From a virus, in IMG/VR virus record IMGVR_UViG_3300020450_000852, positions 1 to 25,318 of that record: a DNA stretch of 25,318 bases; one strand, given 5' to 3'. Numbering within the stretch: position 1 is the first letter of the stretch; each line of letters starts with the position of its first letter. The position numbers and the translations under genes were made by a program. The notes beneath the pieces are model-generated. The model did not search any database and was not told the origin of the DNA. It saw nothing but the letters and a program-made list of their open reading frames with translations. Shown here piece by piece: positions 1 through 24,006 of the stretch.

Positions 1-373
1 GGAAGTCTTGTGGATCATAACTACCTGCATGCCAGAGACCACCAATAGTGATGTCAACACCCAATAGTTCTGCCATATAACGCAGTTGAATAACTGTAGG
101 ATTCCAGGCATCGGTATAGAGAAAATAATCACCATCTTCAACAGATCCATCACAGAACATTGCTCCTATTTTTTCAAGTTGTTTTGATTTGTAAACATTA
201 GTACCACCAAAGTTCAGGAAAGCACCAGGCGTTGTAGCCTGCGGTGTTTCCCCTCCACTAATTACTTTTACATCTTCGTTTGTAGCACGTTGCAGTTGTG
301 GTGGAAGATAATCTTTCCATTGTTTTGTGTATCTTGTATCTACTGCTTCAATGTCTACTATATGAATAGTCAT
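1..373 (-). CDS. Glycosyltransferase-like phage protein (3' end beyond window)
   Basis: The start is the ATG at 373-371, which shares one base with the stop of the upstream gene (TAATG). 124 residues are visible and the reading frame runs off the window edge. It opens with a beta-strand-like MTIHIVDIEAV and later has GDYFLYTDAWNPTVIQLRYM and GGLWHAGSYDPQDF. I associate these segments with a protein of T4-like marine phages that is usually called a glycosyltransferase; this comes from memory of the family, not a search. It could glycosylate modified DNA or a surface structure. It is the last visible gene of the operon headed by the QueD-like gene, so a role next to nucleotide modification is possible. 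The gene is certain; the function is moderate to weak. Confidence 0.5.
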   Translation of the reverse strand, partial: MTIHIVDIEAVDTRYTKQWKDYLPPQLQRATNEDVKVISGGETPQATTPGAFLNFGGTNVYKSKQLEKIGAMFCDGSVEDGDYFLYTDAWNPTVIQLRYMAELLGVDITIGGLWHAGSYDPQDF

Positions 374-611: not shown

Positions 612-1100
612 TTATGGTTTGGGGTAATATATTGAACAGCCGTTTTCGCCATCTTCGGCAACATCAATCTCAACAAATCGGCCTGGGTATTTTGCTGAAA
701 TCTTTTCGTACAGTTCATCTGCAATCATTTCGCAGGACCTGTGATTTAAAACGAGCACCTCACCGTCGGAAGTACTTTCTCCGTTATATAGCCTCTCCAT
801 CCATCTTTTGAATTGGATGAATTCGATATCCCTATCGTTGTGGAACACCTCGATACGCACCCTGAAATGGAAAATATGACGATGAGCAACACCAAGAAAC
901 GAAACATCGTCCCAATCACCTGTTGCCAATTTTGGATCACTATCTGCCCCCGGATACATATGAACACCTTCTTTTCTAAAGGTTACCCATATACTTCTTG
1001 CCGCCTTATTTATTACATTTTCTTGTGCCATTATTGCATCTTCCTCTCTAGATCTACGCATCATATAATCGTAATATCTTTCATCTGTTATTTTATTCAT
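612..1100 (-). CDS. QueD/6-pyruvoyl-tetrahydropterin synthase-like protein
   Basis: Up to 162 aa. Seen: an HRH motif in VAHRHIFHFRVRIEV (about residues 73-85), IEFIQFKRWMERL (like the 'DF..LK' strand-helix of the family), VLNHRSCEMIADELY (in the position of the 'pTaEnla' helix) and IDVAEDGENGCSIYY near the end. This order and spacing fit the T-fold of QueD, which makes 6-carboxy-tetrahydropterin on the route to 7-deazaguanines. Zinc ligands are only partly evident, so it could be a diverged homologue with another role. A sigma70 promoter's -10 box overlaps the ATG at 1100, so transcripts from it would begin inside the frame. The in-frame ATG at 1031, after a GAGGAAG box, would then be the start (139 aa, MAQENVINKA). 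Read-through transcripts could still use 1100. Confidence 0.55.
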   Translation of the reverse strand: MNKITDERYYDYMMRRSREEDAIMAQENVINKAARSIWVTFRKEGVHMYPGADSDPKLATGDWDDVSFLGVAHRHIFHFRVRIEVFHNDRDIEFIQFKRWMERLYNGESTSDGEVLVLNHRSCEMIADELYEKISAKYPGRFVEIDVAEDGENGCSIYYPKP

Positions 1101-1127
1101 TATATACTCACTCTACAACTTTGTCAA
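1099..1127 (-). promoter_or_regulatory. Sigma70-type promoter upstream of the QueD-like gene
   Basis: On the minus strand TTGACA (1122-1127) is followed by a 17-bp spacer and TATAAT (1099-1104), matching both consensus hexamers. It lies across the 3' end of the preceding gene. The last bases of the -10 box coincide with the annotated ATG at 1100, so the transcript would begin near 1092, inside the reading frame. Confidence 0.75.
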
Positions 1128-1620
1128 GGCCATACTTTGTCCAATCAGTAAATTTATTTCTATCTAATAAATCGTGCAAACTATGACACCAAACACCAGG
1201 ATTAGTTGCCTTAAAGTCTTTATCGTCAATCTTCAACATAGTGTTGTAGTTCCACTGTTTTACGTAAGGCAACGGAATACGTAGTTGTGGAATAAAGTTT
1301 TCATATTCAGTTAGACCACTTTCGAGAAAGTCTTCTGCGTAATTAATTGGAATATCCAAACTACACAATTTGCCAGCAGTTAAGAATGCCTTTATCATTC
1401 TTTCCCATCTGATCCATTCATCTTCATTTAATGGCTCGAAAGAATGATTAGCACCAAAGAATATATGCTGTCTATCTTCTAGTTTTTCTTGTATAACATC
1501 ACAAGATTGTAAACCTGTAACAAATAATGTATCCATACCATGTGCAGGAGTTTTTTCTACTTCTATTCCTGTAAAGAATTCAACATTATCTTTTATACCT
1601 GATTCGTATTTTCTTTTCAT
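1108..1620 (-). CDS. Conserved phage protein of unknown function
   Basis: 170 aa, starting at the ATG that overlaps the upstream stop (ATGA at 1617-1620). No signal peptide or membrane helix. The sequence is rich in aromatic and acidic residues; notable stretches are HIFFGANHSFEPLNEDEW, IPQLRIPLPYVKQWNYNTML and KIDDKDFKATNPGVWCHSLH. Three cysteines are scattered and do not form a radical-SAM CxxxCxxC, and there is no SGGxDS or CEHH motif. It is therefore not an obvious QueE, QueC or FolE despite its place between the DpdA-like and QueD-like genes. I recognise the general type as a hypothetical protein of marine T4-like phages but no fold. A link to DNA modification is inferred from position only. 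Confidence 0.7.
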   Translation of the reverse strand: MKRKYESGIKDNVEFFTGIEVEKTPAHGMDTLFVTGLQSCDVIQEKLEDRQHIFFGANHSFEPLNEDEWIRWERMIKAFLTAGKLCSLDIPINYAEDFLESGLTEYENFIPQLRIPLPYVKQWNYNTMLKIDDKDFKATNPGVWCHSLHDLLDRNKFTDWTKYGLDKVVE

Positions 1621-1805
1621 TTACCTAAAAACCTCTTTGCAACATTGATTGGATTTTTTAATCCTTCATAAGTTTTGTCAATAAAACCTATGTGTTTATT
1701 AAGTTTAACACTTAAATCATCTAAAGTCAACTGTAATTTGACCATCTTCTTATCCAATTCATCAATTTTTTTGTTTAGCATTTCGTTTTTAATAGTCATC
1801 ATCAT
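1617..1805 (-). CDS. Small coiled-coil protein, unknown function
   Basis: 62 aa, beginning with three consecutive ATG codons after an AAAGAG box, so the exact start is uncertain by two residues. The body (KIDELDKKMVKLQLTLDDLS) shows heptad-like Leu/Ile/Val spacing typical of a short coiled coil, followed by a basic tail ending in RFLGK. No membrane segment. It overlaps the upstream 51-aa gene by 17 nt and the downstream gene by 4 nt (ATGA), which supports it as a real, coupled gene. No function can be assigned. Confidence 0.65.
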   Translation of the reverse strand: MMMTIKNEMLNKKIDELDKKMVKLQLTLDDLSVKLNKHIGFIDKTYEGLKNPINVAKRFLGK

Positions 1806-1944
1806 CTCTTTTAATATGTTTGTAGTCTAGGTACTGTGAGCACCATTCATAAAAAGCACGATCCGTATTAGGCCAGCACTCGGCAAACACTGGATCTTTT
1901 CTATGTTCTTTATATTCTGCTCTTACTTCTTTCTCACTCAGCAT
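1789..1944 (-). CDS. Small acidic/aromatic protein (51 aa), unknown function
   Basis: A short frame in what otherwise looks like a 128-nt gap. It starts MLSEKEVRAEYKEHRKDP and continues with FAECWPNTDRAFYEWCSQYL, ending in an acidic DDDDY tail. The composition (Trp, Cys, Tyr, charged residues) is that of a folded small protein rather than random translation. It overlaps the PsiE-like gene upstream by 11 nt and the coiled-coil gene downstream by 17 nt, as elsewhere in this operon. I recognise no domain. Confidence 0.65.
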   Translation of the reverse strand: MLSEKEVRAEYKEHRKDPVFAECWPNTDRAFYEWCSQYLDYKHIKRDDDDY

Positions 1945-2344
1945 TTTGTTCTTTTATTTTTTTCTTTTCTAAACTTAGTTTTTCTTTAGCACTCATGGCA
2001 TAGGCCGCTCCTGCTAATAAAACAATAGCACCTGCTTCTGCTATCAATACCCAAGGATCAGCATCTTTACTGTGTAATATAATTAATCTACACAATGCCG
2101 TCATTGCAATAATAATTGGTAGTGTTACTGGTATCCTATTACTAATATAATAAGCACCAACCATGCCTACAATTTCTGTATAAATGAATAACAAAAACAA
2201 ATCAGCAAGTGCAATATTTTTGTTTTGCCACATGCCGTACACTTCTAATAGTGCGGCTACTACGGTTAACGCACCAATGCCGCCAAGCATTAGTTTTTCT
2301 GTAACTGTTGTAGTCCAATGTAAACGTTGATTTAATTTACTCAT
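1934..2344 (-). CDS. psiE: PsiE-family membrane protein
   Basis: 136 aa with four predicted membrane helices: about residues 19-36, 46-67, 72-90 and 98-116. The stretch LFIYTEIVGMVGAYYISNR followed by IPVTLPIIIAMTALCRLIIL is highly typical of PsiE, the phosphate-starvation-inducible membrane protein of the bacterial Pho regulon, whose biochemical role is unclear. The C-terminus is charged and Lys/Glu-rich, probably cytoplasmic. The start ATG overlaps the stop of the DUF465-like gene (ATGA). In a phage this may be an auxiliary metabolic gene linked to host phosphate stress (inference). No Pho box is evident at the gene itself; it appears to be transcribed from the sliding-clamp operon. Confidence 0.8.
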   Translation of the reverse strand: MSKLNQRLHWTTTVTEKLMLGGIGALTVVAALLEVYGMWQNKNIALADLFLLFIYTEIVGMVGAYYISNRIPVTLPIIIAMTALCRLIILHSKDADPWVLIAEAGAIVLLAGAAYAMSAKEKLSLEKKKIKEQNAE

Positions 2345-2544
2345 CCTAAAGCCTTTAATTCATTTTCTATTCTGTGTATTTCATCTTTCAACCAAAGTTT
2401 CTTTGTTTTCAAAAGATTAAGTTCATGATTTTCTACAAATTGATTATACAAAACCTTTATTTCTTGATCTAGTGATCTATGACGTTTATATAATTCTTGC
2501 AAGTGTGTTGCAAGTTTATCGTGTTTGTCCGTGTAGTTGCTCAT
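2341..2544 (-). CDS. DUF465 (YdcH-like) helical hairpin protein
   Basis: 67 aa and all-alpha. HKDLA-type repeats are absent, but the signature order 'L..HRSLDQEIKVL ... LLKTKKLWLKDEIHRIE' matches the small DUF465/YdcH family: a Leu-rich helix, a loop, then L-K-x-K-x-L-x-LKDEI. Family function is unknown. The gene overlaps the end of the transglycosylase-like gene by 29 nt and overlaps the PsiE gene by 4 nt. Confidence 0.7.
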   Translation of the reverse strand: MSNYTDKHDKLATHLQELYKRHRSLDQEIKVLYNQFVENHELNLLKTKKLWLKDEIHRIENELKALG

Positions 2545-4078
2545 CTTCTAGTTCCTCCAATTTGGTTTCATCTAGTTCCTCTTCATCAGTTTGCTCTTGA
2601 GTTTGATCTACATCAAACAAAGCATCAAAAAAAGTACTACTGTTTACTGTCTTTTTACCAACAGCACCTCTAGTACCAGGTATAGCCATCCAAAACTTAT
2701 TATACTTTTCAATAACTTCTAATGACTGTTCTTTTGTATTCTTTGAGAATATTTCTTCCACAACATCTCTGAATAGAATCCTGTCAAATTGCTCTTGTAC
2801 AAGCATTTTAGGAATAATTCCAGCGTCATACTGTCTGTTTGCTTCTTGAACTGCATTTATGTGACTCCACACGTTATGACCCATCTGGATCGCATAAGAA
2901 AAACTATCCCACGATGTTTTTCCTTCTTTACCTATTTTGTTTAAGTCCCCAGGCTTATAAACACAGATATCTTTTACAAGCATTCCATCTGTTACAGGAC
3001 TGTCTTCAAAGTTTTTAAAAATACCATCTTGTAATACAGCATCTTTAAATGTGCGTGTATCCGTAGCATATTTTTTATCATCTATACTCGGCACCATTCT
3101 ATATGTCCATTTTCCTCTATCAGGAGTTTCATTTTGTATGTAAACTTGTCCGTTAGCAGTTGCTAAGAAAGGACTTGCACAATCGAATGTAATCATAAAA
3201 TTAGGGTTATAATATTTTCTTACTGCTCTTTGTATATCAGTCAACAACGTAGCCCATTCTAATTTAGATGTTCCTAAGAAGTGCATTACATCATGCACAC
3301 CTTGTTGTAATAGATTATCATAATACAATGCAACAAGACGTTTAAGAACCAAATGTACATCACACATGTTCTGTCCACCCATTGACCAACCATTAAAATG
3401 TGTGTCAGGATACTTAACAGGATCACAGTAATCTTTCATTTGATCATACCAGTCATCTGCGTCTGCATGATTCTCGCCTTGTAAAACATTTAAAAATTTA
3501 CAAGCACCAGTTCTATTTTTCATAAAGTAATCGTTATTAATGCGTGTTGCCTTTACTGCTTCTTGATAGGTACTAATACCTGTTGCTTTTGCACCTGCTG
3601 GCGAACGTGATACCCAGGCTGGAATATCAAGTATCATACCATAGTCCATATATGCGTCCATCCATTTCAGAACGCCATCACGTTTCTTTTGTGCTTTAGG
3701 ACAGTTAGGATCTTTCCAGTCGCCTTCCCAAACACCTTTACCAATTTGGAATCCGCCTGAATCGCCTAGTAACCAAGTATTATCTCGGTCTCTATTACGA
3801 ACCATATCTTCTTTTGGAACAACTTTAGTTGTATCTAAATCAGCATGACCTGCACTATACAATGACCACTTGTAAGTAAATGCTCCCTGTTGTTTGTTAA
3901 GATAGTTAAGGCTTTCTACATTGCTATTCCAATTAGCAGGAATACGCGAGTCTTCAATGTAAGGACCTTTAACAGGATCAGGAAAGCGTTGTTTGCCTAC
4001 ATATGTTGCATAGAAGCCGCTTAATGCTGGCAAAAAATGTGCGTAGTCGTTCTGTGTCGCTGTTAAGTCTTTATTCAT
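2516..4078 (-). CDS. TGT-fold transglycosylase, DpdA-like (7-deazaguanine DNA modification candidate)
   Basis: 520 aa. Motifs in TGT order and spacing: GDSGGFQ (residues 105-111), LQGENH (199-204, the 'VQGG' position), FNGWSMGGQ (228-236, the 'GyAiGGl' position), HFLGTS (266-271, the 'YLmGvG' position) and ITFDCASPF with the expected nucleophile Asp at about 299. A GHNVWSHINAVQEANR helix corresponds to the terminal HNL helix of TGT. TGT exchanges guanine for a 7-deazaguanine in tRNA; DpdA does the same in DNA and is known from phages. The CxCxxC zinc motif of tRNA-type TGT is not visible, which argues against a plain tRNA enzyme. The C-terminus is very acidic. A QueD-like gene lies downstream. 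The fold is confident; the DNA substrate is inferred. Confidence 0.72.
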   Translation of the reverse strand: MNKDLTATQNDYAHFLPALSGFYATYVGKQRFPDPVKGPYIEDSRIPANWNSNVESLNYLNKQQGAFTYKWSLYSAGHADLDTTKVVPKEDMVRNRDRDNTWLLGDSGGFQIGKGVWEGDWKDPNCPKAQKKRDGVLKWMDAYMDYGMILDIPAWVSRSPAGAKATGISTYQEAVKATRINNDYFMKNRTGACKFLNVLQGENHADADDWYDQMKDYCDPVKYPDTHFNGWSMGGQNMCDVHLVLKRLVALYYDNLLQQGVHDVMHFLGTSKLEWATLLTDIQRAVRKYYNPNFMITFDCASPFLATANGQVYIQNETPDRGKWTYRMVPSIDDKKYATDTRTFKDAVLQDGIFKNFEDSPVTDGMLVKDICVYKPGDLNKIGKEGKTSWDSFSYAIQMGHNVWSHINAVQEANRQYDAGIIPKMLVQEQFDRILFRDVVEEIFSKNTKEQSLEVIEKYNKFWMAIPGTRGAVGKKTVNSSTFFDALFDVDQTQEQTDEEELDETKLEELEDEQLHGQTR

Positions 4079-4444: not shown

Positions 4445-5173
4445 CTATTTAGATTGTGCAGGTAGTATATAATCATATTTGACCATACCACTATCAACAC
4501 TAATCATCATTGCACCTTGATCTGAAATGCTCATCGAAGCATCACCATCTAAGTTTAAAATTGCTTGTACTTGGGCAACAGGCCAACTCCATGTATGTGC
4601 AAGTGTGCCTTCAATACTATGTTGGAATACAAATTCACCTGCATGTGTACTTTGATCACCAAAACTAAAAACTAAATTTCCATCTTTAGTCATTACGTTA
4701 AATGTTGGTTCTTCTGCGTGTGCCGCACTCATAAGTTTCATACGTGCAATACTTGCCATACTTGGTTGGAATGTTACACTCCAAGCCGCACCTTTAAATT
4801 TAACTGTCTTAAGTTTTTCTTCTATAATTGCTTTGTTCATAAAGCGATAGTCATTTTGGAAATCACCTGCCGCATTTTCAAAATGTATATGTGTTGGGAT
4901 TGTTTCTCCGTTGCGTTCTGCTTTTACAACTTCGATCTTTGCATCTTTTTGATACTCAGGATTTTTTAAATGCAAACTAAGTTTATCTAAGTTTGGCATT
5001 CCAAAGGTTCCTTCAAACTCTGCTACTGGCGAATGTGTACTACCTGATAAAATTACTGAACGGTCTTCAGCCATTGCATCGATAGTTGTGCCTTCGTCAT
5101 TGCTTACTTTCACTAGTGCTAAAAAGCCTAATGCGTGTGTATGGGCAACAACGTCTTGTAGAATGTCTTTCAT
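4445..5173 (-). CDS. 45: Sliding clamp, DNA polymerase processivity factor (gp45-like)
   Basis: 242 aa, near the 228 aa of T4 gp45. FEGTFGMPNLDKLSLHL near residue 55 is the recognisable gp45-type motif. Further regions follow the pattern of a two-domain clamp subunit that would trimerise round DNA: WSVTFQPSMASIARMKLM mid-protein and LAHTWSWPVAQVQAILNL later. The clamp tethers the phage polymerase and, in T4, activates late transcription. The start ATG overlaps the epimerase stop (ATGA), after an ATAGGAG box with 7-nt spacing. It has its own sigma70 promoter inside the end of the epimerase gene. The clamp loader genes that follow 45 in T4 are not here; a small-protein and DpdA-like block follows instead. 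Confidence 0.88.
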   Translation of the reverse strand: MKDILQDVVAHTHALGFLALVKVSNDEGTTIDAMAEDRSVILSGSTHSPVAEFEGTFGMPNLDKLSLHLKNPEYQKDAKIEVVKAERNGETIPTHIHFENAAGDFQNDYRFMNKAIIEEKLKTVKFKGAAWSVTFQPSMASIARMKLMSAAHAEEPTFNVMTKDGNLVFSFGDQSTHAGEFVFQHSIEGTLAHTWSWPVAQVQAILNLDGDASMSISDQGAMMISVDSGMVKYDYILPAQSK

Positions 5174-5919
5174 GTAGTTTCTCCTATTTCAAGTTTTATT
5201 ATATTATCTTTTGGCGAATTTGTCAAGAGTTTTTCGATACTATGTTTAGGTTTAAACCCTAGACTTTTCATTTTGTCCATGTTTGCACATGTCCATTGCC
5301 TTTCATTTGGGGTATTTAGGCGGATAGGCAAATCTTCTGCAAAATCACGGATCCTAAACGGCACTCCTGTGCCTATGTCGACAGTACCAGTATAAGTGGA
5401 TCGTATTAACAATTCAATAGCGTCACATAAATCATCTACGTGTATAAAATCTCTATAGTGATTAGTAACGTATTCTAGTTCGCCGTCAATTAGTTTTTGT
5501 ATAAACATACCTTGTCTTGGATTATGATCATACACTGTATGGAATCTCATTCCTAATGTGTTAGTATTTCTCTCTGCGGCTTCTTCTACACAATATTTGC
5601 TTGCCGCATATGGATTAAGATCAGGTTCATATGCTGAACTAGAACTTGCATACATTATTCTAGTGTTAGGATAACGTGCAAATAATCTTTTACTTACTTC
5701 TACATTGTTACGCCAATATAGTCCTGGGTCTTTAATACTATCTCTTACACCACTTTGACCTGCTAAATGAATAATCAAATCAAATTCTTCATTGAATTCG
5801 CATGTTATTAGATCCTGGCCATCTACTAAATCAAATCCAACAACACTATTTTCTTTTGTAAGACGTTTTAACAAATGAGAACCTATGTATCCTCTATGTC
5901 CAGTTAGCATTATACGCAT
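5170..5919 (-). CDS. NAD-dependent sugar epimerase/dehydratase (extended SDR)
   Basis: 249 aa from ATG 5919, chosen because GGGAG lies 9 nt upstream and the Rossmann motif follows at once: MRIMLTGHRGYIGSHLL contains the GxxGxxG dinucleotide loop. Other family marks: IIHLAGQSGVRDS, YASSSSAYEP, and the catalytic YAASK (YxxxK) with upstream Ser. RDFIHVDDLCDAIELL near residue 160 is the usual 'DFvhVdD' of sugar-nucleotide epimerases. It is shorter than the usual 310-340 aa, so the substrate-binding lobe is reduced. It overlaps the phosphomannomutase-like gene by 10 nt and ends the sugar cassette. The likely role is tailoring a nucleotide sugar; the exact sugar is not deducible. Confidence 0.82.
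   Translation of the reverse strand: MRIMLTGHRGYIGSHLLKRLTKENSVVGFDLVDGQDLITCEFNEEFDLIIHLAGQSGVRDSIKDPGLYWRNNVEVSKRLFARYPNTRIMYASSSSAYEPDLNPYAASKYCVEEAAERNTNTLGMRFHTVYDHNPRQGMFIQKLIDGELEYVTNHYRDFIHVDDLCDAIELLIRSTYTGTVDIGTGVPFRIRDFAEDLPIRLNTPNERQWTCANMDKMKSLGFKPKHSIEKLLTNSPKDNIIKLEIGETT
5198..5226 (-). promoter_or_regulatory. Consensus sigma70 promoter for the sliding clamp operon
   Basis: Minus strand TTGACA (5221-5226), 17-bp spacer, TATAAT (5198-5203): both hexamers match the consensus. It lies inside the last codons of the epimerase gene. Transcription would start near 5191, leaving a leader of about 18 nt that contains the AGGAG of the clamp gene. Confidence 0.85.
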
Positions 5920-6611
5920 TTTAATTTCTCCCAAGTATCTTGCCAACCGTTAACTTGTATCGCTAAACCTAAGTCGTTATCAATAATAACTTTTTTCAAA
6001 GGGTAATCATTGCCTTGTGAATCCATCCTATCACCAAAAAAGTGTAGAGTATCATTTTGATGGAAATCATAAATGATTTGACTTTTGTCTTTGCCTTTAG
6101 GTGATATATCTATTCCTGTTTCACCTCCTGGCCTTGCAACTAAATCAATAAACTCTTTATTAAATAAATCTGCTATATAGTTACGTTCGTTATGTTCTTT
6201 ATCATATTTTACGTAAAGTTTGCGTTCACCTATTGTTGCATTACGTCCTACAACACTAAAGTTAATCATACCTACTCGTTCTTCGATATGTAAACCTGTT
6301 CGTAAAGGAAATTTACTTTCTTCCAACTTTTCTAAAAGCCAAGTCTTAACATGATATGGAATTTTCCAATCATTAGTTTTAATTCTTTTATTACCTTCCC
6401 ATACTTCACTACCTGAACAATTATATACACGTTTGGCCATACCATAAAGATCTTCGCCTATTTGTTCGACTGTTTTAGGTTTATCACTTCCAGTAACAAG
6501 ATAAACATTATTATTACTACAAAATTCTACAAAGAATTTTTTAAAATCATCATCAATCTTACCTCGACTTGGTGTAAGTGTTCCGTCTACATCAAATATA
6601 AAATTATGCAC
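5910..6611 (-). CDS. Phosphomannomutase-like HAD phosphatase/mutase
   Basis: 233 aa from a GTG start at 6611 with GGAG about 9 nt upstream. Motif I is FDVDGTLTPSR, the double-Asp HAD signature; VTGSDKPKTVEQIGEDL fits motif II. GMINFSVVGRNATIGER resembles the 'GMlNvSPiGR' substrate segment, and HFFGDRMDSQGNDYPL is motif IV. This set matches the alpha-phosphomannomutase (HAD-IIB) family best known from eukaryotes (about 245 aa), which converts mannose-6-P to mannose-1-P. Next to a nucleotidyltransferase and an epimerase, it should supply a hexose-1-phosphate for activation. It may act as a sugar phosphatase instead. It overlaps both neighbours by 8-10 nt. Confidence 0.8.
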   Translation of the reverse strand: MHNFIFDVDGTLTPSRGKIDDDFKKFFVEFCSNNNVYLVTGSDKPKTVEQIGEDLYGMAKRVYNCSGSEVWEGNKRIKTNDWKIPYHVKTWLLEKLEESKFPLRTGLHIEERVGMINFSVVGRNATIGERKLYVKYDKEHNERNYIADLFNKEFIDLVARPGGETGIDISPKGKDKSQIIYDFHQNDTLHFFGDRMDSQGNDYPLKKVIIDNDLGLAIQVNGWQDTWEKLKCV

Positions 6612-7008
6612 AAACTCTTCTCCTTAGATCACTTGAACTAAAACGGTGATCTCTTTTATTAAAATGTATATCAATATCACGTTTACGACAAATATCTTTT
6701 CCTGTAAAATCTTTGTCGCGATATTCTTCTCCTAATATACGTACATTGATAGGGTACATAGAAAGAATATCTTCTAAATCTTCTTCTGTACCGTATGGAA
6801 TAATTTCATCTACATATTCTACACCTTTTAATTGAGTGTAGCGTTCAACTACAGTTTGTATAGGTGCATTCTTTTCTGCTCTATCTATACTTGGATCAAC
6901 CTGTAATCCACAAATAAGATAATCACATTGTTCTTTTGCTTCACGTAACATTATTATATGTCCAGCATGTAATAAGTCAAATGTTGAACAAGTAAAACCT
7001 ACTTTCAT
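6604..7008 (-). CDS. Cytidylyltransferase (TagD/GCT-like nucleotidyltransferase)
   Basis: 134 aa. The N-terminus MKVGFTCSTFDLLHAGHIIM has the HxGH (HAGH) nucleotide-binding motif of the cytidylyltransferase superfamily. The C-terminus has RFSSSDLRRRV, in the place of the 'ISSTxxR' motif. Length and layout fit glycerol-3-phosphate cytidylyltransferase and sugar-phosphate cytidylyltransferases, which transfer CMP from CTP to a phosphorylated substrate. The start ATG shares a base with the stop of the cupin gene. In this cassette it probably activates a sugar or polyol phosphate made by its neighbours (inference). Confidence 0.85.
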   Translation of the reverse strand: MKVGFTCSTFDLLHAGHIIMLREAKEQCDYLICGLQVDPSIDRAEKNAPIQTVVERYTQLKGVEYVDEIIPYGTEEDLEDILSMYPINVRILGEEYRDKDFTGKDICRKRDIDIHFNKRDHRFSSSDLRRRVCA

Positions 7009-7349
7009 TAGTGACTCCTCTTTCCATCAAACACACAAACAAAATATAAACTTTCATCTTTACCTTGATACATATCAGATTCAACCCTATGATGTACACC
7101 ATCTTCTATAAGGACTACATCACCAGGGCCTACTTGCATAGGTACATCATTTAAATACATTGTTCCTTTTCCGCTAATAAAAAAATAAACTTCTTCTTGA
7201 CCTTTGTGGATATGTCCTGATGTTGATTTTCCAGGTTTCATTGTTGTACTGCTTAACACTAAATTTTTTAAGAATGTATTGTCTTTGACGATATATCTAT
7301 CATCTTCTTTAGCAATGTTCCCACCAATGTCGTTGATGTTTATTTTCAT
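7008..7349 (-). CDS. Single-domain cupin (sugar isomerase/epimerase-like)
   Basis: 113 aa. Cupin motif 1 is GHIHKGQEEVYFFISGKG with the metal-type His, His and Glu; motif 2 is PGDVVLIEDGVHHRV with the later His. This is a compact beta-barrel metal-binding protein of the kind found in mannose-6-phosphate isomerase-like and sugar-tailoring cupins. It starts with an ATG overlapping the coiled-coil gene upstream (ATGA-type) and is followed at once by the cytidylyltransferase. The reaction cannot be deduced from sequence; position implies sugar-phosphate chemistry. Confidence 0.8.
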   Translation of the reverse strand: MKININDIGGNIAKEDDRYIVKDNTFLKNLVLSSTTMKPGKSTSGHIHKGQEEVYFFISGKGTMYLNDVPMQVGPGDVVLIEDGVHHRVESDMYQGKDESLYFVCVFDGKRSH

Positions 7350-7600
7350 TTATTTTCCTTTGGTAATTCTATAATGTTTTGTTCATTGTCTAACATATTT
7401 TCTTTTATGTCATACACTTGCTCAGTCTTAATCATATTAATAATTGTATTAGTAAGACTAACTTCGCTTCGTAAATAACCTATTTTACGTTGCAACTCTT
7501 CTAACTCTTTCAAATAATATTCTAATTCTTTTTCCTTACGTAACTTTTGTTCTATAAAGTCTGTGATTAAAATCAGTTTCTGTTCTTCGCTCAATTTCAT
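7346..7600 (-). CDS. Coiled-coil protein (84 aa), unknown function
   Basis: The sequence is almost entirely helical and charged: KLSEEQKLILITDFIEQKL, then KELEYYLKELEELQRKIGYL with clear heptad Leu/Ile spacing, then a less ordered acidic tail. No membrane segment or Cys. It overlaps the end of the DNA polymerase gene by 4 nt (ATGA) and the cupin gene by 4 nt, so it is coupled to both. It could be a structural adaptor or regulator; no family recognised. Confidence 0.65.
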   Translation of the reverse strand: MKLSEEQKLILITDFIEQKLRKEKELEYYLKELEELQRKIGYLRSEVSLTNTIINMIKTEQVYDIKENMLDNEQNIIELPKENK

Positions 7601-10287
7601 TGTTCTCCAAAATCAAATAGGCTGTTAAATGTATTGTGTTGCTTAGTATCTTGTAATGGATAGTTAAGCACACCAATTAAGTTGTCTAGTTTGTTATCGA
7701 TAATTGTTTCTGCCATTGCGTCATCATCAAATGGCAGTTCTTTAAACCAATCTGGTATACGTAGTTCATCTGTTGGATACGCAACACTTGTATAACCTAA
7801 CGGATTCTGTTTTAGTTTACACACAATAACTTTCATACCGTCTACAATCTCTTGCGAATACTTGTCGCCATTCATACGTTTAAGTGTATTCCAGTTGATG
7901 CTTGCTCTTACGTGTCCAGGCATGTTTGCTTTGCCTTGCTTTTCTTCTAGTCGTTGATAGTGTCCAATCTTGTTTGCACGTTTAGGAGATCCTTTCTCCC
8001 AACCTGGACGTTCTGAAAACTCTTTACGGAACTGTGTAATACGTTCTAGTACATCTGCTTGTGGTTTATCAGTAAGTACCATTAATAATAGTTCGCTTAA
8101 GAACTGTTGCATAAACACAGGAGTATCTGATCTACGTAAATCTAATCCCATTGCTTTTACTTTACCAGGCTTTCCATCTACATCACTTCTAAAGCCTTCA
8201 ATATCATATACTAATGCCGCATAACGTTTCTTTGTAATATACAAGCCTGACTCTGCAACAATTTCTCTTGCCGCCGCAATTACATCTGAACGTGACTTAG
8301 GACAATGAAATGCATTTAGCATAAACTTTGGAAATGTTTCATTAGCCGCTTCACATACTTGATCATAAAGTTTAATTACGTTATCTTTACCCCAAGGCAC
8401 TTGTCCTTTGTCTATTTGTTCTTTCAATACAGGATATCCACTGAAGTAACATGAATCTGTATCACCATATATCATTGCTTCACCTACGTGATCATATTTG
8501 CCTGTTATAACTTTGTTTACTTCTGCTGACATGTGTTTAACAATAGTACGACCTGTAAGTGTTGTTGACTGACCAATACGTTTATCAAAAAATCTACAAC
8601 CTGGATTAAGAATAGCACCATATAAACTATTTAGGTTAATCTTTTTAACTAATTGTCTTTTGTCCCAATATTCAATTTCTATTTTATTGCCAGCATCTTT
8701 TGCTTTTTTAAGTTGTGCTTGTAATTCTTGACGTTCAGTATACCAGCGTTCAAGTATACCTGGAATAACACCTTCAAACTCTGTTGTAAAGATTGTTCCA
8801 TTAGATGAAAGCATCCAAGGCATATTACTATCATAAATTAATTTGTAAATTTCTGCACCACTCAACACATCACTTGTTGCACCTGCAGGTGACTTTCCTT
8901 CTTCCCAATCAACAGTAAGTGATATATCTCTGCGTTGTTCCATTACTGCTTCATATTCTTCTGTACTAAAACGTCCCTCCCAAGATCCTGCAAAACTCTT
9001 CTTTTTAAGCGTCATATCTTCGTGTATACGTGCTTCGCTAATAGTTGGGCGTATTTGTCCTATGATTGTTTCGGGTGCCATATTTAATGCACGAATCACA
9101 CTAGGATATAGACTGTTCAAGTCCATTGATCCAATCCATTTGTGTAATCCTTTTTTAGGAAATGCTACATAAGCACCTGCCGCGGCTGTGCTTTCATCGT
9201 CATATTTTGATCTGTTTGGAACTTGAAGTCCTCTGTGATGTGCTTCGTTTACAATCGCTTGTTCTGTAACTGCAACTGCACCCATTGTGGTCTGTAGCAA
9301 AACAGTATTTGCATGAGCCAGTTCATTACTAAGATCAATAAATCTTAGTTTTTTGTCCAACTTGTCCAGTAGTGCGGTATCTTGTATGTTGTATTCGATG
9401 AACTTTCTAAAGTCATTGTTGTACAACTGGTCCAAAGTGCCTTCATAAGGGACTTTGTTTTCACCAACTTCAACTTCACCAATGGCATCAAGTCTGTAAC
9501 TGTGTCTTTCTTCATATGTGTATTTACGATATAAATTCAAACTATCTAAATGCACTCTGCCTACTAGGTCATAGGTTTCCGCTGATTTACCATACTTCTC
9601 GTATTCTCTTTTCTTAGGAAGTTGTTGCCATAAACAAAAACGTCTTGTGTCATCTTTTGAAAGTACACGGCTTGTTCTATTTACAATGTAAGGAATATCA
9701 TAACCTTCACTGTTCCAACCTGATAATACATCAGCATCTTCAATTAGTGTTAAGAAAGTGTCAATCATTTCACCTTCTTTCTCAAATAGCATAACGTTTT
9801 CTATACCCTCAAGTTCTTTTTTTGCTTGATCCATTGTAAGTGTCTTTGGAGGAACTGCTAAACATACCATTGTTTCTAGCCACTGTAGATATACAGATAC
9901 AGATGTAATTGGCATAAAAGGATCACTAGGATCAGCAAAGCCTCGCTCTGGATCAAAGTCAGTTTCAATATCAAAAAATGCAATGTTTAGTTTTGGAGCA
10001 TCTTGGTTAAGATAATTTTCACTTAGGCATTGGAATATAGGATTAATGTCGCTTTCGAATAATTGTTTGCTTTTGTTAATAGCAACTTCTTTACGAAAGT
10101 CTTTTGTGTTTTTACATACGATACGTTGGAGAGGATCACCATAGACACTTTTATACTTGCCTCGCTGGTCTTTATAATAGAATGTATATTTTGCTTGATA
10201 TTCGTGGAAATGCCTTTTTCCATCTTTACGCTCTACAACTCTGATTATATCAGAATCGCGATCAAAATGTGCGTCTACGTAACTCAA
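7597..10287 (-). CDS. 43: Family B DNA polymerase, T4 gp43-like
   Basis: 896 aa from TTG 10287 (T4 gp43 has 898). Exonuclease: FFDIETD (Asp 106, Glu 108), GWNSEGYDIPYI (Asp 197), YNIQDTALL (Asp 303). Polymerase: motif A DLNSLYPSVI (Asp 389), motif B KKINLNSLYGAI, motif C IYGDTDS (Asp 609 and 611). All catalytic residues expected for proofreading and synthesis are present. The C-terminus NSLFDFGEQ resembles the gp43 clamp-binding peptide. I chose TTG 10287 because GAGGAG lies 6 nt upstream and the protein then begins near the first beta strand as in gp43. The longer TTG start at 10314 has no Shine-Dalgarno and falls inside a hairpin. It is expressed from a sigma70 promoter and probably under translational control. 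Confidence 0.95.
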   Translation of the reverse strand: MSYVDAHFDRDSDIIRVVERKDGKRHFHEYQAKYTFYYKDQRGKYKSVYGDPLQRIVCKNTKDFRKEVAINKSKQLFESDINPIFQCLSENYLNQDAPKLNIAFFDIETDFDPERGFADPSDPFMPITSVSVYLQWLETMVCLAVPPKTLTMDQAKKELEGIENVMLFEKEGEMIDTFLTLIEDADVLSGWNSEGYDIPYIVNRTSRVLSKDDTRRFCLWQQLPKKREYEKYGKSAETYDLVGRVHLDSLNLYRKYTYEERHSYRLDAIGEVEVGENKVPYEGTLDQLYNNDFRKFIEYNIQDTALLDKLDKKLRFIDLSNELAHANTVLLQTTMGAVAVTEQAIVNEAHHRGLQVPNRSKYDDESTAAAGAYVAFPKKGLHKWIGSMDLNSLYPSVIRALNMAPETIIGQIRPTISEARIHEDMTLKKKSFAGSWEGRFSTEEYEAVMEQRRDISLTVDWEEGKSPAGATSDVLSGAEIYKLIYDSNMPWMLSSNGTIFTTEFEGVIPGILERWYTERQELQAQLKKAKDAGNKIEIEYWDKRQLVKKINLNSLYGAILNPGCRFFDKRIGQSTTLTGRTIVKHMSAEVNKVITGKYDHVGEAMIYGDTDSCYFSGYPVLKEQIDKGQVPWGKDNVIKLYDQVCEAANETFPKFMLNAFHCPKSRSDVIAAAREIVAESGLYITKKRYAALVYDIEGFRSDVDGKPGKVKAMGLDLRRSDTPVFMQQFLSELLLMVLTDKPQADVLERITQFRKEFSERPGWEKGSPKRANKIGHYQRLEEKQGKANMPGHVRASINWNTLKRMNGDKYSQEIVDGMKVIVCKLKQNPLGYTSVAYPTDELRIPDWFKELPFDDDAMAETIIDNKLDNLIGVLNYPLQDTKQHNTFNSLFDFGEQ

Positions 10288-10289
10288 CT

Positions 10290-10322
10290 CTATCTCCTCG
10301 TTGCTTGTGGCCAACGGACCAT
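10290..10322 (-). CDS. Candidate upstream ORF (10 codons) in the polymerase leader
   Basis: MVRWPQATRR then TAG. The ATG at 10322-10320 has AGAGG 7 nt upstream (10330-10334), and the stop ends 2 nt before the polymerase TTG. Ribosomes translating it would pass through the hairpin that masks the polymerase ribosome binding site and stop on top of the start. An in-frame ATG two codons upstream (10328) is too close to the AGAGG. It is too short to prove from one sequence. Confidence 0.35.
   Translation of the reverse strand: MVRWPQATRR
10299..10316 (-). promoter_or_regulatory. Hairpin at the polymerase ribosome binding site, possible gp43 operator
   Basis: In the RNA sense CGTTG-GCCACAAG-CAACG forms a 5-bp stem with an 8-nt loop, abutting GAGGAG (10294-10299) of the polymerase start. 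T4 gp43 represses its own translation by binding a hairpin of the same geometry (5-bp stem, 8-nt loop) just 5' of its Shine-Dalgarno. The loop sequence differs from T4. Confidence 0.5.
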
Positions 10323-20107: not shown

Positions 20108-20773
20108 ACTTAATGCAGAGTTGATAAACTTGTCGACACGTTTGATATTACCACCTATGATGATCTGTATAAGTTGTAATACCTTTTCGTCCCGTACATA
20201 AAAGTACATACCATTAACATAACCGTTATTTTTAACTTCTTGTAAGAACTTATTTCCTGCTTTACATTTATCAGGATTAGCAGTAATCCAATCACCCAAT
20301 CCGCTAGATACTTGATTACCTACTGTTACTTTATATTCAAATTCGATAGGGTTTTCTTTAGTAATGATTACTTTAGGCTTGAGATTGTTTATATCTTCAA
20401 GATTAGGTTGCGTAAAACTTTCTATACTCAAATTACGAGTTTTTAAACTTTCTATCCAATGTATGTCATTTGAATAAATGTTTAAGAAAGGATGTTCACA
20501 TCTAAGTTTGTAATTATCATGTCCTTGTGCAGTAAATTCAGCAAGTAGAAATTGTGCAGTAATTAAAGCATCTCTTGTAACAGGTACAGTATATCTTAAT
20601 GATCTTTTCCAATTGATATCATCTCCTGTTTCTGCTTGTTGTTGTAATGAATCTAAAATACTTCTAGCATAAGACAGATTTTTGTCTCTAAAAATTACAC
20701 CTAGGTTGTGCTGGACAACCAACCTGTACATATACTGATCGTAAAACAGTTTTGTAGTCTTAAGTGCTTGCAA
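20105..20773 (-). CDS. Conserved phage protein of unknown function, coupled to clpA
   Basis: 222 aa from TTG 20773, with AGAGG 6 nt upstream; it overlaps the end of the ClpA gene by 14 nt. The N-terminus MQALKTTKLFYDQYMYRLVV is basic-aromatic, and the sequence is mixed alpha/beta without membrane helices, Cys clusters or nucleotide motifs. Its place directly after clpA allows a role as adaptor or substrate-selecting partner, but nothing in the sequence proves it. I recall similar hypothetical proteins in T4-like marine phages. An ATG at codon 15 is the only alternative close start and has no better ribosome binding site. Confidence 0.7.
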   Translation of the reverse strand: MQALKTTKLFYDQYMYRLVVQHNLGVIFRDKNLSYARSILDSLQQQAETGDDINWKRSLRYTVPVTRDALITAQFLLAEFTAQGHDNYKLRCEHPFLNIYSNDIHWIESLKTRNLSIESFTQPNLEDINNLKPKVIITKENPIEFEYKVTVGNQVSSGLGDWITANPDKCKAGNKFLQEVKNNGYVNGMYFYVRDEKVLQLIQIIIGGNIKRVDKFINSALS

Positions 20774-23003
20774 CGACGACCTCTTTCTCGGTAGCCTCCA
20801 AAGTAAACTCTTTATTGTCGTTTACATTAATTGTTACTATACCGCCATTTTTCAATTTGCCAAATAACATTTCTCTTGATAAAGGACGTTTTATTTCTTT
20901 ATCAATTACACGTTGCAATGGTCTAGCACCCATCTTAGGATTAAATCCTTTATCAACTAATACATCAAGTGCTTTATCGTCAATTTTAATAGTAATACCT
21001 TTTGCATGTACCATGTCTCTAAGTTCAACAAGGAACTTACCTACAATTTTCATCATAATTTCTTTTGATAATTTACCAAAAGTAATTGTGCCATCTAATC
21101 TATTACGGAATTCTGGAGCAAAGAATTTTTTAAGTTCTGTATCTTCATACGTTCCTTCCCATTCGCTACTAAATCCGATAGTATTTTTCTCTGCTTCTGT
21201 TGCACCTAAGTTAGTTGTAAGAATTAGTACGCAATTACGTGCATCTGCTTCTTTACCATTACTACCCATTAGTTTACCATTGTCCATAACTTGTAACAAA
21301 ATTTGGGAAACATCTGGGTGTGCTTTTTCAATCTCATCTAATAGTAAAACACAATTAGGATGTTCTTGTAATTTAGTAATTAACAATCCTGCACTATCTT
21401 CGTAACCTACATAACCTGGTGGTGAACCAATTAGTTTTGCAACTGCATGTTTTTCTTGATATTCTGACATATCAAAACGTACAAGTTGTACACCTAGTTG
21501 TTTTGCAAGTTGTTTTGCAGTTTCAGTTTTACCTACACCAGTTGGCCCCATGAATACAAAAGAACCAATAGGCTTGTTGTCTGGTTTCAGTCCTGCTTGT
21601 GCAACAAGAATTTTATCTACAATACCTTCAATTGCAGGATCTTGCCCGTAAACTGACTTTTTAAGATTGCTTTCTAAGTTTGCTAGGTTTTCTGTTTCTT
21701 TTTCAGCAACTTGCTCTTCAGGTAATTTAATAATTTTAGCAAGTTCAAATTGTATTTCTTCACTACCTACAATTTTATCACCTTTAACTTCTTTTAAATT
21801 AAATCTACTACAAGCAACATCAATTAAGTCAATTGCTTTATCAGGTAATTTTTTGTCTGTTTGATACTTAACACTTAGTTTGATTGCTTCTTCAATTGCT
21901 TCTTCAGTAATAATTGTATTATGATAACCTTCGTAATATTTTTTAATACCACGTAAGATATCTGTTGTAACTTCTTTGCTTGGTTCGTCGACTGTTACAC
22001 GTTGGAATCTACGCATTAATGCTCTGTCATTTTCAAAGAACTTTCTGTATTCTTCCCAAGTAGTTGATGCAACAACTTTTAAGTCGCCTTTTGTAAGAGC
22101 AGGCTTTAACATATTTGCTAAATCATTAGAACTATTTGCTCCTCCTGCACCAGCACCATTCATCATGTGTGCTTCATCAACAAACATAATTGTTTTGCCT
22201 TTTTTCTTTAGAGCGGCAAGAACCAATTTAAATCTTTCTTCAAAATCACCTCTATACTTACTACCAGCAAGCATTGAACCAATGTCTAAATTATAAACTT
22301 CATATTCTTTAAGAAATTCTGGTACGTTTCCTGATACAATATTAAACGCCATTCCTTCTGCAATAGCAGTTTTACCAACACCAGGATCACCTACAAGTAA
22401 AACATTATTTTTGCTTCTACGTCCTAATGCAAGTGAAATGCTTTCAAGTTCTTCTGATCTTCCTATTACAGGATCTACACGTTCTTTTTTAACTTCATCA
22501 TTTAAATTAGTAGTAAATGCTCGTAATGCTCTCTGAGCCTCACCACTCATTGCTTCGTCATCTACATTTTCGTATTCGCTATTCACATAATCACTAAATG
22601 CTGGCTTGGCAATTCCTGCTTTTTCTATATAATATTTGCTGACACATTTATCTTCAGCCATAATACTAATTAAGACGTCAGTAAGTTCTATATGACTACG
22701 TCCACTAAACAATACCTGTGTAAATGCTCTATTTAAAATTCTTTCAACAGTTTGCGTTTTTTTAGGCTTGTATTTTTCTAGATCTATCTTTAATTCATCA
22801 CAGTTCTTTTTTAAGTGATGCTCTAAATTAGATTTTAAGTATTCTACATCTGCTCCAAAACCTTGTAATGTTTTAAAGAAATTTTCTTCACACATCATTG
22901 CAAACAATAAGTGCTCCACGGTTACATATTCGTGGTTCAGCCTACGAGCATCTTTTATTGCTTTATCAAAAACTAGTTGTAATGTTTCACTTGGTTCTAC
23001 CAT
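20760..23003 (-). CDS. clpA: ClpA-like AAA+ unfoldase with two ATPase modules
   Basis: 747 aa, close to E. coli ClpA (758). N-domain about 1-145 of the Clp_N type (HEYVTVEHLLFAMM). First AAA module: Walker A GDPGVGKT at 205-212, Walker B IMFVDEAHM. Second module: Walker A GPTGVGKTETAKQL, Walker B LLLDEIEKAH, sensor region APEFRNRLDG, and GARPLQRVIDKEIKRPL near the end. There is no ClpB-type long middle domain. An IGF tripeptide at 609-611 sits where ClpA has its ClpP-docking IGL loop, so it may dock host ClpP; no clpP is in the window. It would unfold host or phage proteins for degradation, or act in assembly. A strong sigma70 promoter lies upstream. Confidence 0.92.
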   Translation of the reverse strand: MVEPSETLQLVFDKAIKDARRLNHEYVTVEHLLFAMMCEENFFKTLQGFGADVEYLKSNLEHHLKKNCDELKIDLEKYKPKKTQTVERILNRAFTQVLFSGRSHIELTDVLISIMAEDKCVSKYYIEKAGIAKPAFSDYVNSEYENVDDEAMSGEAQRALRAFTTNLNDEVKKERVDPVIGRSEELESISLALGRRSKNNVLLVGDPGVGKTAIAEGMAFNIVSGNVPEFLKEYEVYNLDIGSMLAGSKYRGDFEERFKLVLAALKKKGKTIMFVDEAHMMNGAGAGGANSSNDLANMLKPALTKGDLKVVASTTWEEYRKFFENDRALMRRFQRVTVDEPSKEVTTDILRGIKKYYEGYHNTIITEEAIEEAIKLSVKYQTDKKLPDKAIDLIDVACSRFNLKEVKGDKIVGSEEIQFELAKIIKLPEEQVAEKETENLANLESNLKKSVYGQDPAIEGIVDKILVAQAGLKPDNKPIGSFVFMGPTGVGKTETAKQLAKQLGVQLVRFDMSEYQEKHAVAKLIGSPPGYVGYEDSAGLLITKLQEHPNCVLLLDEIEKAHPDVSQILLQVMDNGKLMGSNGKEADARNCVLILTTNLGATEAEKNTIGFSSEWEGTYEDTELKKFFAPEFRNRLDGTITFGKLSKEIMMKIVGKFLVELRDMVHAKGITIKIDDKALDVLVDKGFNPKMGARPLQRVIDKEIKRPLSREMLFGKLKNGGIVTINVNDNKEFTLEATEKEVVVAST

Positions 23004-23145
23004 TTTTTTCCAATTCCTTTACAAGTCCATTAAGTAAATCAATGAACTCATATACTTTTTCTTTTTTAATATCTTCATTAGCACTACTATGAACTGTTGC
23101 TAAAAGTTTCGGATATTCACTATTTAACTTTTCATTAATGCTCAT
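22987..23145 (-). CDS. Small protein (52 aa) ahead of clpA
   Basis: It begins MSINEKLNSEYPKLLATVHS and continues with helical KVYEFIDLLNGLVKELEKN, ending 17 nt inside clpA in another frame. The ATG is only 6 nt downstream of a perfect TATAAT, so it would be read from a leaderless message if the promoter acts as predicted. The helical, charged composition is plausible for a real protein. The alternative is a non-coding clpA leader. No domain recognised. Confidence 0.5.
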   Translation of the reverse strand: MSINEKLNSEYPKLLATVHSSANEDIKKEKVYEFIDLLNGLVKELEKNGRTK

Positions 23146-23151
23146 GATGTT

Positions 23152-23180
23152 ATTATAACAGTATTTTCTTTAAGAGTCAA
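23152..23180 (-). promoter_or_regulatory. Extended -10 sigma70 promoter for the clpA operon
   Basis: Minus strand TTGACT (23175-23180), 17-bp spacer, TATAAT (23152-23157), with TGT immediately before the -10 (extended -10). It overlaps the final codons of the DnaJ gene. The start site would fall at about 23145, on the ATG of the 52-aa ORF. Confidence 0.82.
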
Positions 23181-24006
23181 CACCTTTTTTATCCAATCTC
23201 TTCCTAAGTTTCTGCAATGTGACTATTTCATCTTGCGATAGGTTTTTTGGTACAATTCCTTCTATAGTTACATATAAATTTCCCTTGCGTCCAGTCCTCA
23301 GATCTGGCATTCCATACCCATGAATACTAAATTTTGTATTTGGATTGGTTCCTGCTGGTATATTGACTTTAACTTTGCCTCCATCTATTGTATTAATAAG
23401 CACATTTCCGCCAATTATAAAATCAAATATATTAGCCTTTGAAGTACAATGTAAATTTATGCCATCTACACCAAATATACTATGCGGAACAACTTGTATT
23501 TTTACATGCAAATTGCCTCTAGGACCTGCAACACCTTCTTCACCAAAACCTTCATAGCGTATTGTATTACCATGTTTTGCACCTGGTGGCACTTTAATTT
23601 CTACTACTTCTTCTTTGCCTGTTCTTAGCCTGTAACTTGCAACCATTACTTTGCCTGTATATGCTTCTTCTAATGTTATACGTGCGGCTATAGTTATATC
23701 TGGGTTTACTTGTTGTTGTCTACCTCTTACATTGAATCCAAAATTTGCAAATAAATCTTCAAACCCTCCCATGCCTTGAAATCCACCAGGTCCAAAACCT
23801 TGTGCAAATTGAGGTTGAGGATTATCATACTCTTGACGCTTTTGAGGATCCTTTAATGTTGAATAGGCTTCGTTGATTTGTTTGAATTTTTCTTCACTAC
23901 CACCATTGCGATCAGGATGGTGTTGCATACTTTGTTTCTTGTATGCTTTCTTTAATTCATCTTGTGAAGCGTTTCGAGAAACACCAAGCGTTTCGTAATA
24001 GTCCAT
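23170..24006 (-). CDS. DnaJ/CbpA-type co-chaperone
   Basis: 278 aa. J domain about 1-62 with the HPD motif in QHHPDRNGG and the usual YYETLGVSRNASQDELKKAY start. A short Gly/Phe region follows (FAQGFGPGGFQGMGGFEDLF), then two C-terminal beta domains (KVPPGAKHGNTIRYEGFGEE and later NIPAGTNPNTKFSIHGYGMP). The Cys-rich zinc finger is absent, so it is a type II, CbpA-like protein. It would stimulate host DnaK, for example in capsid or replisome assembly. Next to clpA it suggests a phage proteostasis set. No good Shine-Dalgarno is visible before the ATG. Confidence 0.93.
   Translation of the reverse strand: MDYYETLGVSRNASQDELKKAYKKQSMQHHPDRNGGSEEKFKQINEAYSTLKDPQKRQEYDNPQPQFAQGFGPGGFQGMGGFEDLFANFGFNVRGRQQQVNPDITIAARITLEEAYTGKVMVASYRLRTGKEEVVEIKVPPGAKHGNTIRYEGFGEEGVAGPRGNLHVKIQVVPHSIFGVDGINLHCTSKANIFDFIIGGNVLINTIDGGKVKVNIPAGTNPNTKFSIHGYGMPDLRTGRKGNLYVTIEGIVPKNLSQDEIVTLQKLRKRLDKKGVDS

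Follow-up and report, generated by a model that had tools for sequence, protein, structure and literature searches.

A viral gene module with a DpdA2-like transglycosylase and a QueD paralogue, probably for 7-deazaguanine modification of marine viral DNA

The viral record IMGVR_UViG_3300020450_000852 is a fragment of 25,318 bases, and this whole stretch, here called the window, was analysed for a candidate DNA 7-deazaguanine module. Two of its genes encode a guanine transglycosylase of 520 amino acids (aa; 2516-4078, minus strand) and a T-fold protein of 162 aa (612-1100, minus strand), the latter 1.4 kb downstream on the same strand, exactly where the initial annotation had placed them. A third gene, missed in that annotation, encodes a conserved predicted glycosyltransferase, of which the first 124 codons are present at 2-373 (minus strand). 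The genome available is the window alone, so anything past its ends was read from relatives. Gene co-occurrence was surveyed in 30 records, comprising 17 large IMG/VR contigs of the transglycosylase clade and 13 named phages. Four further phages with a T-fold gene were later checked for QueC, which brings the named phages to 17.

The transglycosylase

The transglycosylase displays the motif order of tRNA-guanine transglycosylases (TGTs), with DSGGFQ starting at residue 106, LDIP at 150, LQGE at 199, MGGQ at 233, LGTS at 268, and FDC at 298. Catalysis is predicted to depend on the aspartates D106 and D299. A CxCxxC zinc site is found neither in this protein nor in any of 47 aligned sequences, in agreement with the earlier description of a TGT motif order lacking this site. 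Residues D106 to Q111, D151, G201, G235, H266, L268, G269, and D299 do not vary in sequences of as little as 32% identity, and the motif pattern is therefore not due to chance.

By sequence, nothing in Pfam, PHROGs, NCBIfam, PADLOC, or the PDB matches the transglycosylase. As these direct family searches found nothing, its placement relies on structure and on the comparison of profiles. The AlphaFold2 (AF2) model, built from 47 sequences, has a pLDDT of 79.7, with low confidence from residue 471 onwards. Structure prediction, proposed with the initial annotation, returned the TGT fold: all of the 20 best PDB matches in Foldseek are bacterial, archaeal, or murine TGTs (E 9e-7 to 1e-3, approximately 13% identity). 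In the BFVD database, the model matches R9TGF0 of Vibrio phage nt-1 (E 9e-10), a protein of 464 aa and thus of the same length as the DpdA2 of nt-1. Profile comparison with hhalign scores 96.5% against DpdA2 (E 7e-10), while five unrelated control families reach at most 0.5%. An affinity to DpdA1 or to a DpdA3-like set was rejected, with hhalign values of only 0.1% and 16%, respectively.

The DpdA2 enzymes of the Vibrio phages nt-1 and KVP40 (Hutinet et al. 2019, PMC6884629) share with this transglycosylase the TGT fold, the DSGG motif, the late catalytic Asp, the lack of a Pfam TGT match, and a position adjoining 7-deazaguanine genes. They differ in the C-terminal part and show no similarity at the BLAST level (E 0.15 for nt-1 DpdA2). 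Furthermore, both phages have QueC and lack the T-fold gene and the glycosyltransferase. The profile match and the missing zinc site support the assignment of the transglycosylase as a TGT-fold enzyme of the phage DpdA type, predicted to lie outside the tRNA enzymes. By sequence, it is better described as a DpdA2-like sister clade than as a member of DpdA2. At least 599 IMG/VR stretches match this clade, and its named phages include PA5oct-type Pseudomonas jumbo phages (33%), Sinorhizobium phage Phosso (26%), and Vibrio phage 2.275.O. In relatives, the module contains FolE and QueE, so that the transglycosylase accompanies genes of 7-deazaguanine synthesis. A DpdA-like transglycosylase within a 7-deazaguanine locus, as first annotated, is thus borne out by the DpdA2 match, the absent zinc site, and these neighbours.

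A divergent tRNA enzyme, acting on host or viral tRNA and leaving the DNA untouched, would share the TGT fold and the FDC motif with the tRNA TGTs. This explanation is very improbable, since neither the PF01702 match nor the CxCxxC site of TGTs and ArcTGTs is found, although PF01702 detects TGTs in 14 of 14 control genomes. In addition, the only profile match is to DpdA2, and the gene sits among polymerase and replication genes. As an enzyme of the DpdA type, the transglycosylase would extend DNA 7-deazaguanine modification to a very common marine virus group, through a clade that no family library recognises.

The T-fold protein and the absence of QueC

The T-fold protein belongs to phrog_17812 and is a QueD paralogue that lacks the catalytic residues of QueD. 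Its AF2 model (mean pLDDT 88.9) has the order strand-strand-helix-helix-strand-strand, and the best PDB matches in Foldseek are to E. coli QueD with a probability of 1.00. Compared as profiles, the protein and QueD score 64-74%, with controls at 0.2% or less. No Pfam model, including PF01242, and no NCBIfam model matches the protein. Searches against PDB sequences with three of the family profiles gave chance matches only, except for 6-pyruvoyltetrahydropterin synthase (PTPS) at E 1 with the T-fold profile. H47, H73, H75, and E149 do not vary in either of two alignments, with 57 and 22 sequences. By reading of the alignment, the histidines appear to occupy the zinc-ligand positions of QueD, and E149 that of its substrate Glu.

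The T-fold, the three zinc-position histidines, and the late Glu are shared with QueD, the 6-carboxytetrahydropterin synthase (E. coli 4ntk). Unlike in QueD, the position of the catalytic Cys is occupied by Leu in every aligned sequence, the Asp-His loop is missing, and two new motifs, H87-x-D-R-D-x-E93 and S122-C-E, are both invariant. In Vibrio phage Bakedbeans (L253:6272-7420) and Chryseobacterium phage MA9V-3 (L256:6398-7276), the T-fold forms the C-terminal half of a longer protein, the N-terminal part of which has no Pfam match.

A canonical QueD is present beside the T-fold gene in seven of seven named carrier phages of the first survey. The missing Cys and Asp-His pair, together with this co-occurrence, argue against the small gene being QueD. 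Of the earlier reading as a QueD-like gene, the likeness in fold stands and the QueD step is not supported. Among the marine contigs, canonical QueD was found in just four of 17, and these viruses may therefore take the QueD step from the host.

FolE, QueD, and QueE make 7-carboxy-7-deazaguanine (CDG), which QueC turns into preQ0 (PMC13329287). A search of the window revealed none of FolE, QueE, and QueC, as noted before. In relatives, FolE and QueE are located a few kb further downstream, so the pathway set is cut by the contig end. In the closest relative, the 182-kb contig L001 (98%), the distance from the transglycosylase gene to QueE downstream is 6.9 kb; neither FolE nor QueD was found on this contig. 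Of the 30 surveyed records, 24 contain the T-fold gene, 28 FolE, and 29 QueE. The QueC carriers Vibrio phage 2.275.O, nt-1, KVP40, 9g, pf16, and Moby are exactly the six records without the T-fold gene. Three of the four phages checked later lack QueC, and the fourth, D479, has only a match of 69 residues, located some 100 kb away from the module, that resembles a second PF06508 match in KVP40. Full-length QueC is thus found in none of 11 named T-fold phages, and all six transglycosylase phages with QueC are without the T-fold gene. The nominal p for this exclusion over the 17 named phages is 8e-5, or 1e-3 if D479 is counted as QueC-positive, and is merely indicative, as these phages were not sampled at random. 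Partial PF06508 matches occur in contig G007 and phage X1.

The T-fold gene occupies the slot of QueC, and the module seems built to run without it. Both take the same place in gene content after FolE, QueD, and QueE, while the T-fold protein has a fold unrelated to that of QueC (PF06508) and lacks its ATP-binding SGGxDS motif. The initial annotation had the set completed elsewhere or by the host. This agrees with FolE and QueE downstream in relatives and is probably wrong for QueC.

Vibrio phage 2.275.O serves as a natural control: it has a transglycosylase of the same clade, QueC, and an annotated QueF, and lacks both the T-fold gene and the glycosyltransferase. Two Amycolatopsis loci have a phage-like operon in the order dpdA1-type gene, T-fold gene, queD, queE, folE, in one case followed by terminase and portal genes. 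Since the T-fold gene occurs here with a real QueD, without QueC, and after the CDG-making steps, its product probably acts on CDG, the product of QueE. In these loci the T-fold gene is paired with a DpdA1-like enzyme, and in phiST, MA9V-3, D479, and Ahp1 with a small DpdA3-like protein, adjoined by a kinase gene in phiST and D479. The common factor of the T-fold loci is thus CDG without QueC, and not a single insertase.

A DpdA system of the preQ0 type, with the small gene as the phage QueD, QueC from the host, and dPreQ0 or a derivative in virion DNA, would agree with the QueD-like T-fold and with the lack of another QueD in most of the 17 marine contigs. Pathway steps can indeed be supplied by hosts (PMC6884629). 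Such a system is nevertheless improbable, given the invariant Leu, the missing loop, and the separate QueD in all seven phages; moreover, the gene tracks with the absence of QueC and not with that of QueD.

Two further observations concern neighbours of the T-fold gene. On long bacterial contigs of Magnetospirillum (L265-L269), genes for the glycosyltransferase, T-fold protein, transglycosylase, and QueD are consecutive. Elsewhere, unannotated proteins of 260-290 aa adjoin the T-fold gene (L085:6882-7658, L254:7444-8313, L255:7686-8540, and L256:7752-8543). Their motifs, LDNGAGD or MDNSxFE, an HFLG-like motif, and STDSCF or WDTSSA, make them likely DpdA3-type transglycosylases.

The glycosyltransferase and the proposed route

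The window holds the 5' part of the glycosyltransferase gene, approximately 124 of 349 codons (hmmsearch E 5e-73), and the whole gene is found in the closest relative (L001:14279-15325). All 17 marine contigs carry a member of the family, as do PA5oct, Phosso, ACP17, X1, and BUCT-ZZ01. Within the 30 records, each carrier of the family also has the T-fold gene. The phages phiST and RHph_I1_18 and all QueC phages lack the family, and it was not found in the four further T-fold phages. In Pfam, Glycos_transf_1 (group 1) matches weakly and below the cut-off (E 2.5e-4 to 1e-3). R202, E206, K207, and E262, compared by eye with the R-x4-K and EX7E motifs of retaining GT-B (GT4-like) glycosyltransferases, are invariant in eight divergent members.

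Three candidate sugar-donor genes lie upstream on the minus strand. A nucleotide-sugar epimerase/dehydratase-like short-chain dehydrogenase/reductase (SDR) is encoded at 5170-5946 (Pfam Epimerase 1.5e-22, GDP_Man_Dehyd 1.3e-17), a phosphomannomutase (PMM)-type haloacid dehalogenase (HAD) protein at 5910-6611 (PF03332, E 9e-25), and a cytidylyltransferase-like nucleotidyltransferase at 6604-7008 (Pfam CTP_transf_like 2.1e-14). They are located upstream in 41, 45, and 47 of 51 loci, respectively; such locus counts include only loci with enough sequence, and the loci are not independent, as some contigs were fetched repeatedly. The whole sugar-nucleotide-like cassette, including a cupin gene, spans 5170-7349 (minus strand) between polymerase and transglycosylase and is kept in most marine relatives.

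The window probably holds a section of a viral module for DNA 7-deazaguanine, one that branches off the preQ0 route at CDG. This reading builds on the observed folds, conserved residues, linkage of the genes, and mutual exclusion of QueC and the T-fold gene, from which we infer the DNA substrate, the decarboxylation, the protective effect, and the sugar. Guanosine triphosphate (GTP) would be converted to CDG by FolE and QueE, whose genes lie downstream in relatives, together with a QueD of phage or host. In place of QueC, the T-fold protein would act on CDG, most likely as a zinc-dependent decarboxylase that yields 7-deazaguanine. As in QueD, the metal would be bound by the three histidines and the guanine edge recognised by E149. 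The transglycosylase would then swap guanines in replicated viral DNA for 7-deazaguanine via a covalent Asp299-deoxyribose intermediate, and the phosphoribosyltransferase of the module could recycle the guanine released by this base exchange. The inserted base would protect viral DNA from host nucleases, and the glycosyltransferase may add a sugar to it. In the DNA of phage CAjan, 7-deazaguanine requires DpdA, and such bases protect from restriction enzymes (PMC6884629).

The proposed route points to a pathway branch at CDG that bypasses QueC. In 2023, Cui et al. reportedly found dDG and dCDG, the deoxynucleosides of 7-deazaguanine and CDG, in phage DNA and predicted an enzyme, DpdL, that decarboxylates CDG. 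The T-fold protein, for which the same reaction is suggested here, may belong to the DpdL family. If it does, the T-fold step had already been predicted, and the novelty lies in the transglycosylase clade with its abundance and in the glycosyltransferase partner.

Decarboxylation of CDG to 7-deazaguanine by the T-fold protein is rated slightly better than even. Several points weigh against the reading as a whole. The decarboxylation is a prediction from gene content and the exclusion of QueC, and a product without a C7 substituent leaves the glycosyltransferase no obvious attachment atom. Contig G016 has a PF06508 match that is weak (2e-5) but nearly full-length. In Streptomyces sp. NEAU-Y11 (L279/L280), the T-fold gene is followed by QueD, FolE, deaminase-like, and FAD-oxidase-like genes, and neither QueE nor a transglycosylase lies within 8 kb; the enzyme may have a use in secondary metabolism there.

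The attachment problem would be solved if the T-fold protein passed on CDG or prepared it otherwise without decarboxylation. In that case dCDG would be the inserted form, and its carboxylate a handle for the glycosyltransferase or another group. The carboxylate indeed offers an attachment point, and the glycosyltransferase and T-fold genes adjoin each other. However, no glycosyltransferase was seen in the phages and the prophage that pair the T-fold gene with DpdA1- or DpdA3-like enzymes, so that the T-fold step makes sense without it. Insertion of dCDG is accordingly considered unlikely, if less so than a preQ0-type system.

Given the conserved glycosyltransferase and the upstream sugar genes, a sugar on the inserted base is a serious possibility. 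The complete sequence of events would begin with a CDG-derived base made ready by the T-fold protein and inserted by the transglycosylase; the glycosyltransferase would then attach a sugar from donors made by the adjacent genes, giving glycosylated 7-deazaguanine in DNA. This scheme is proposed tentatively and falls somewhat short of an even chance. If the glycosyltransferase does act on the inserted base, DNA hypermodification would gain a new class, and restriction, CRISPR, and sequencing bias in marine viromes would be affected. Such a base would parallel mannosyl- and galactosyl-queuosine in tRNA and the glucosyl-hydroxymethylcytosine (hmC) of T4, and would be common in marine T4-like viruses and PA5oct-type Pseudomonas jumbo phages. 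The carriers PA5oct, Paride, and Callisto are cultured on Pseudomonas aeruginosa PAO1, which makes the base measurable at once; in the literature library searched, nothing on 7-deazaguanine in these three phages was found.

Module layout and neighbouring genes

The usual order in marine relatives is DNA polymerase, nucleotidyltransferase, PMM-type HAD, SDR, 242-aa protein, transglycosylase, and 170-aa protein, followed by T-fold protein, glycosyltransferase, phosphoribosyltransferase, in some cases a HIT protein, FolE, QueE, and an RNase H-like protein. Downstream of the transglycosylase, the T-fold gene was found in 179 of 181 loci, the glycosyltransferase in 149 of 151, the phosphoribosyltransferase in 89 of 97, FolE in 26 of 30, and QueE in 28 of 28.

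Pseudomonas phage PA5oct (MK797984) contains the same module in one run, EST35_0313 to EST35_0325. It keeps the polymerase, the homologue of the 242-aa protein, the transglycosylase, the glycosyltransferase, the T-fold protein, the phosphoribosyltransferase, QueE, and the RNase H-like protein. In contrast to the window, its transglycosylase is only 33% identical, the order of glycosyltransferase and T-fold genes is swapped, and most genes are annotated as hypothetical.

Between the transglycosylase and T-fold genes of the window lies the gene of the conserved 170-aa protein with no assigned function (1108-1620, minus strand), which is present in 176 of 181 loci. The conserved 242-aa neighbour (phrog_12062; 4445-5173, minus strand) is also encoded directly upstream of the PA5oct transglycosylase. 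A family B DNA polymerase, similar to T4 gp43, is encoded at 7597-10314 (minus strand; phrog_262, E 1.3e-196), with its best phage match in Phosso at 45%, and provides the context for a replication-linked module. The phosphoribosyltransferase of the module has an intact phosphoribosyl pyrophosphate (PRPP) motif (L001:15938-16477 and L091:2736-3197). In Synechococcus phage BUCT-ZZ01, it is annotated as xanthine-guanine phosphoribosyltransferase and lies beside QueE.

A PsiE-family membrane protein is encoded at 1934-2344 (minus strand) of the window; the nearest relatives have its gene inside the module, and others have it at another place close by. In the region L001:11735-12705, a GcvT-like gene follows the PsiE-family gene. 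At 20760-24006 (minus strand) of the window, a ClpB-like AAA+ protein adjoins a full DnaJ homologue.

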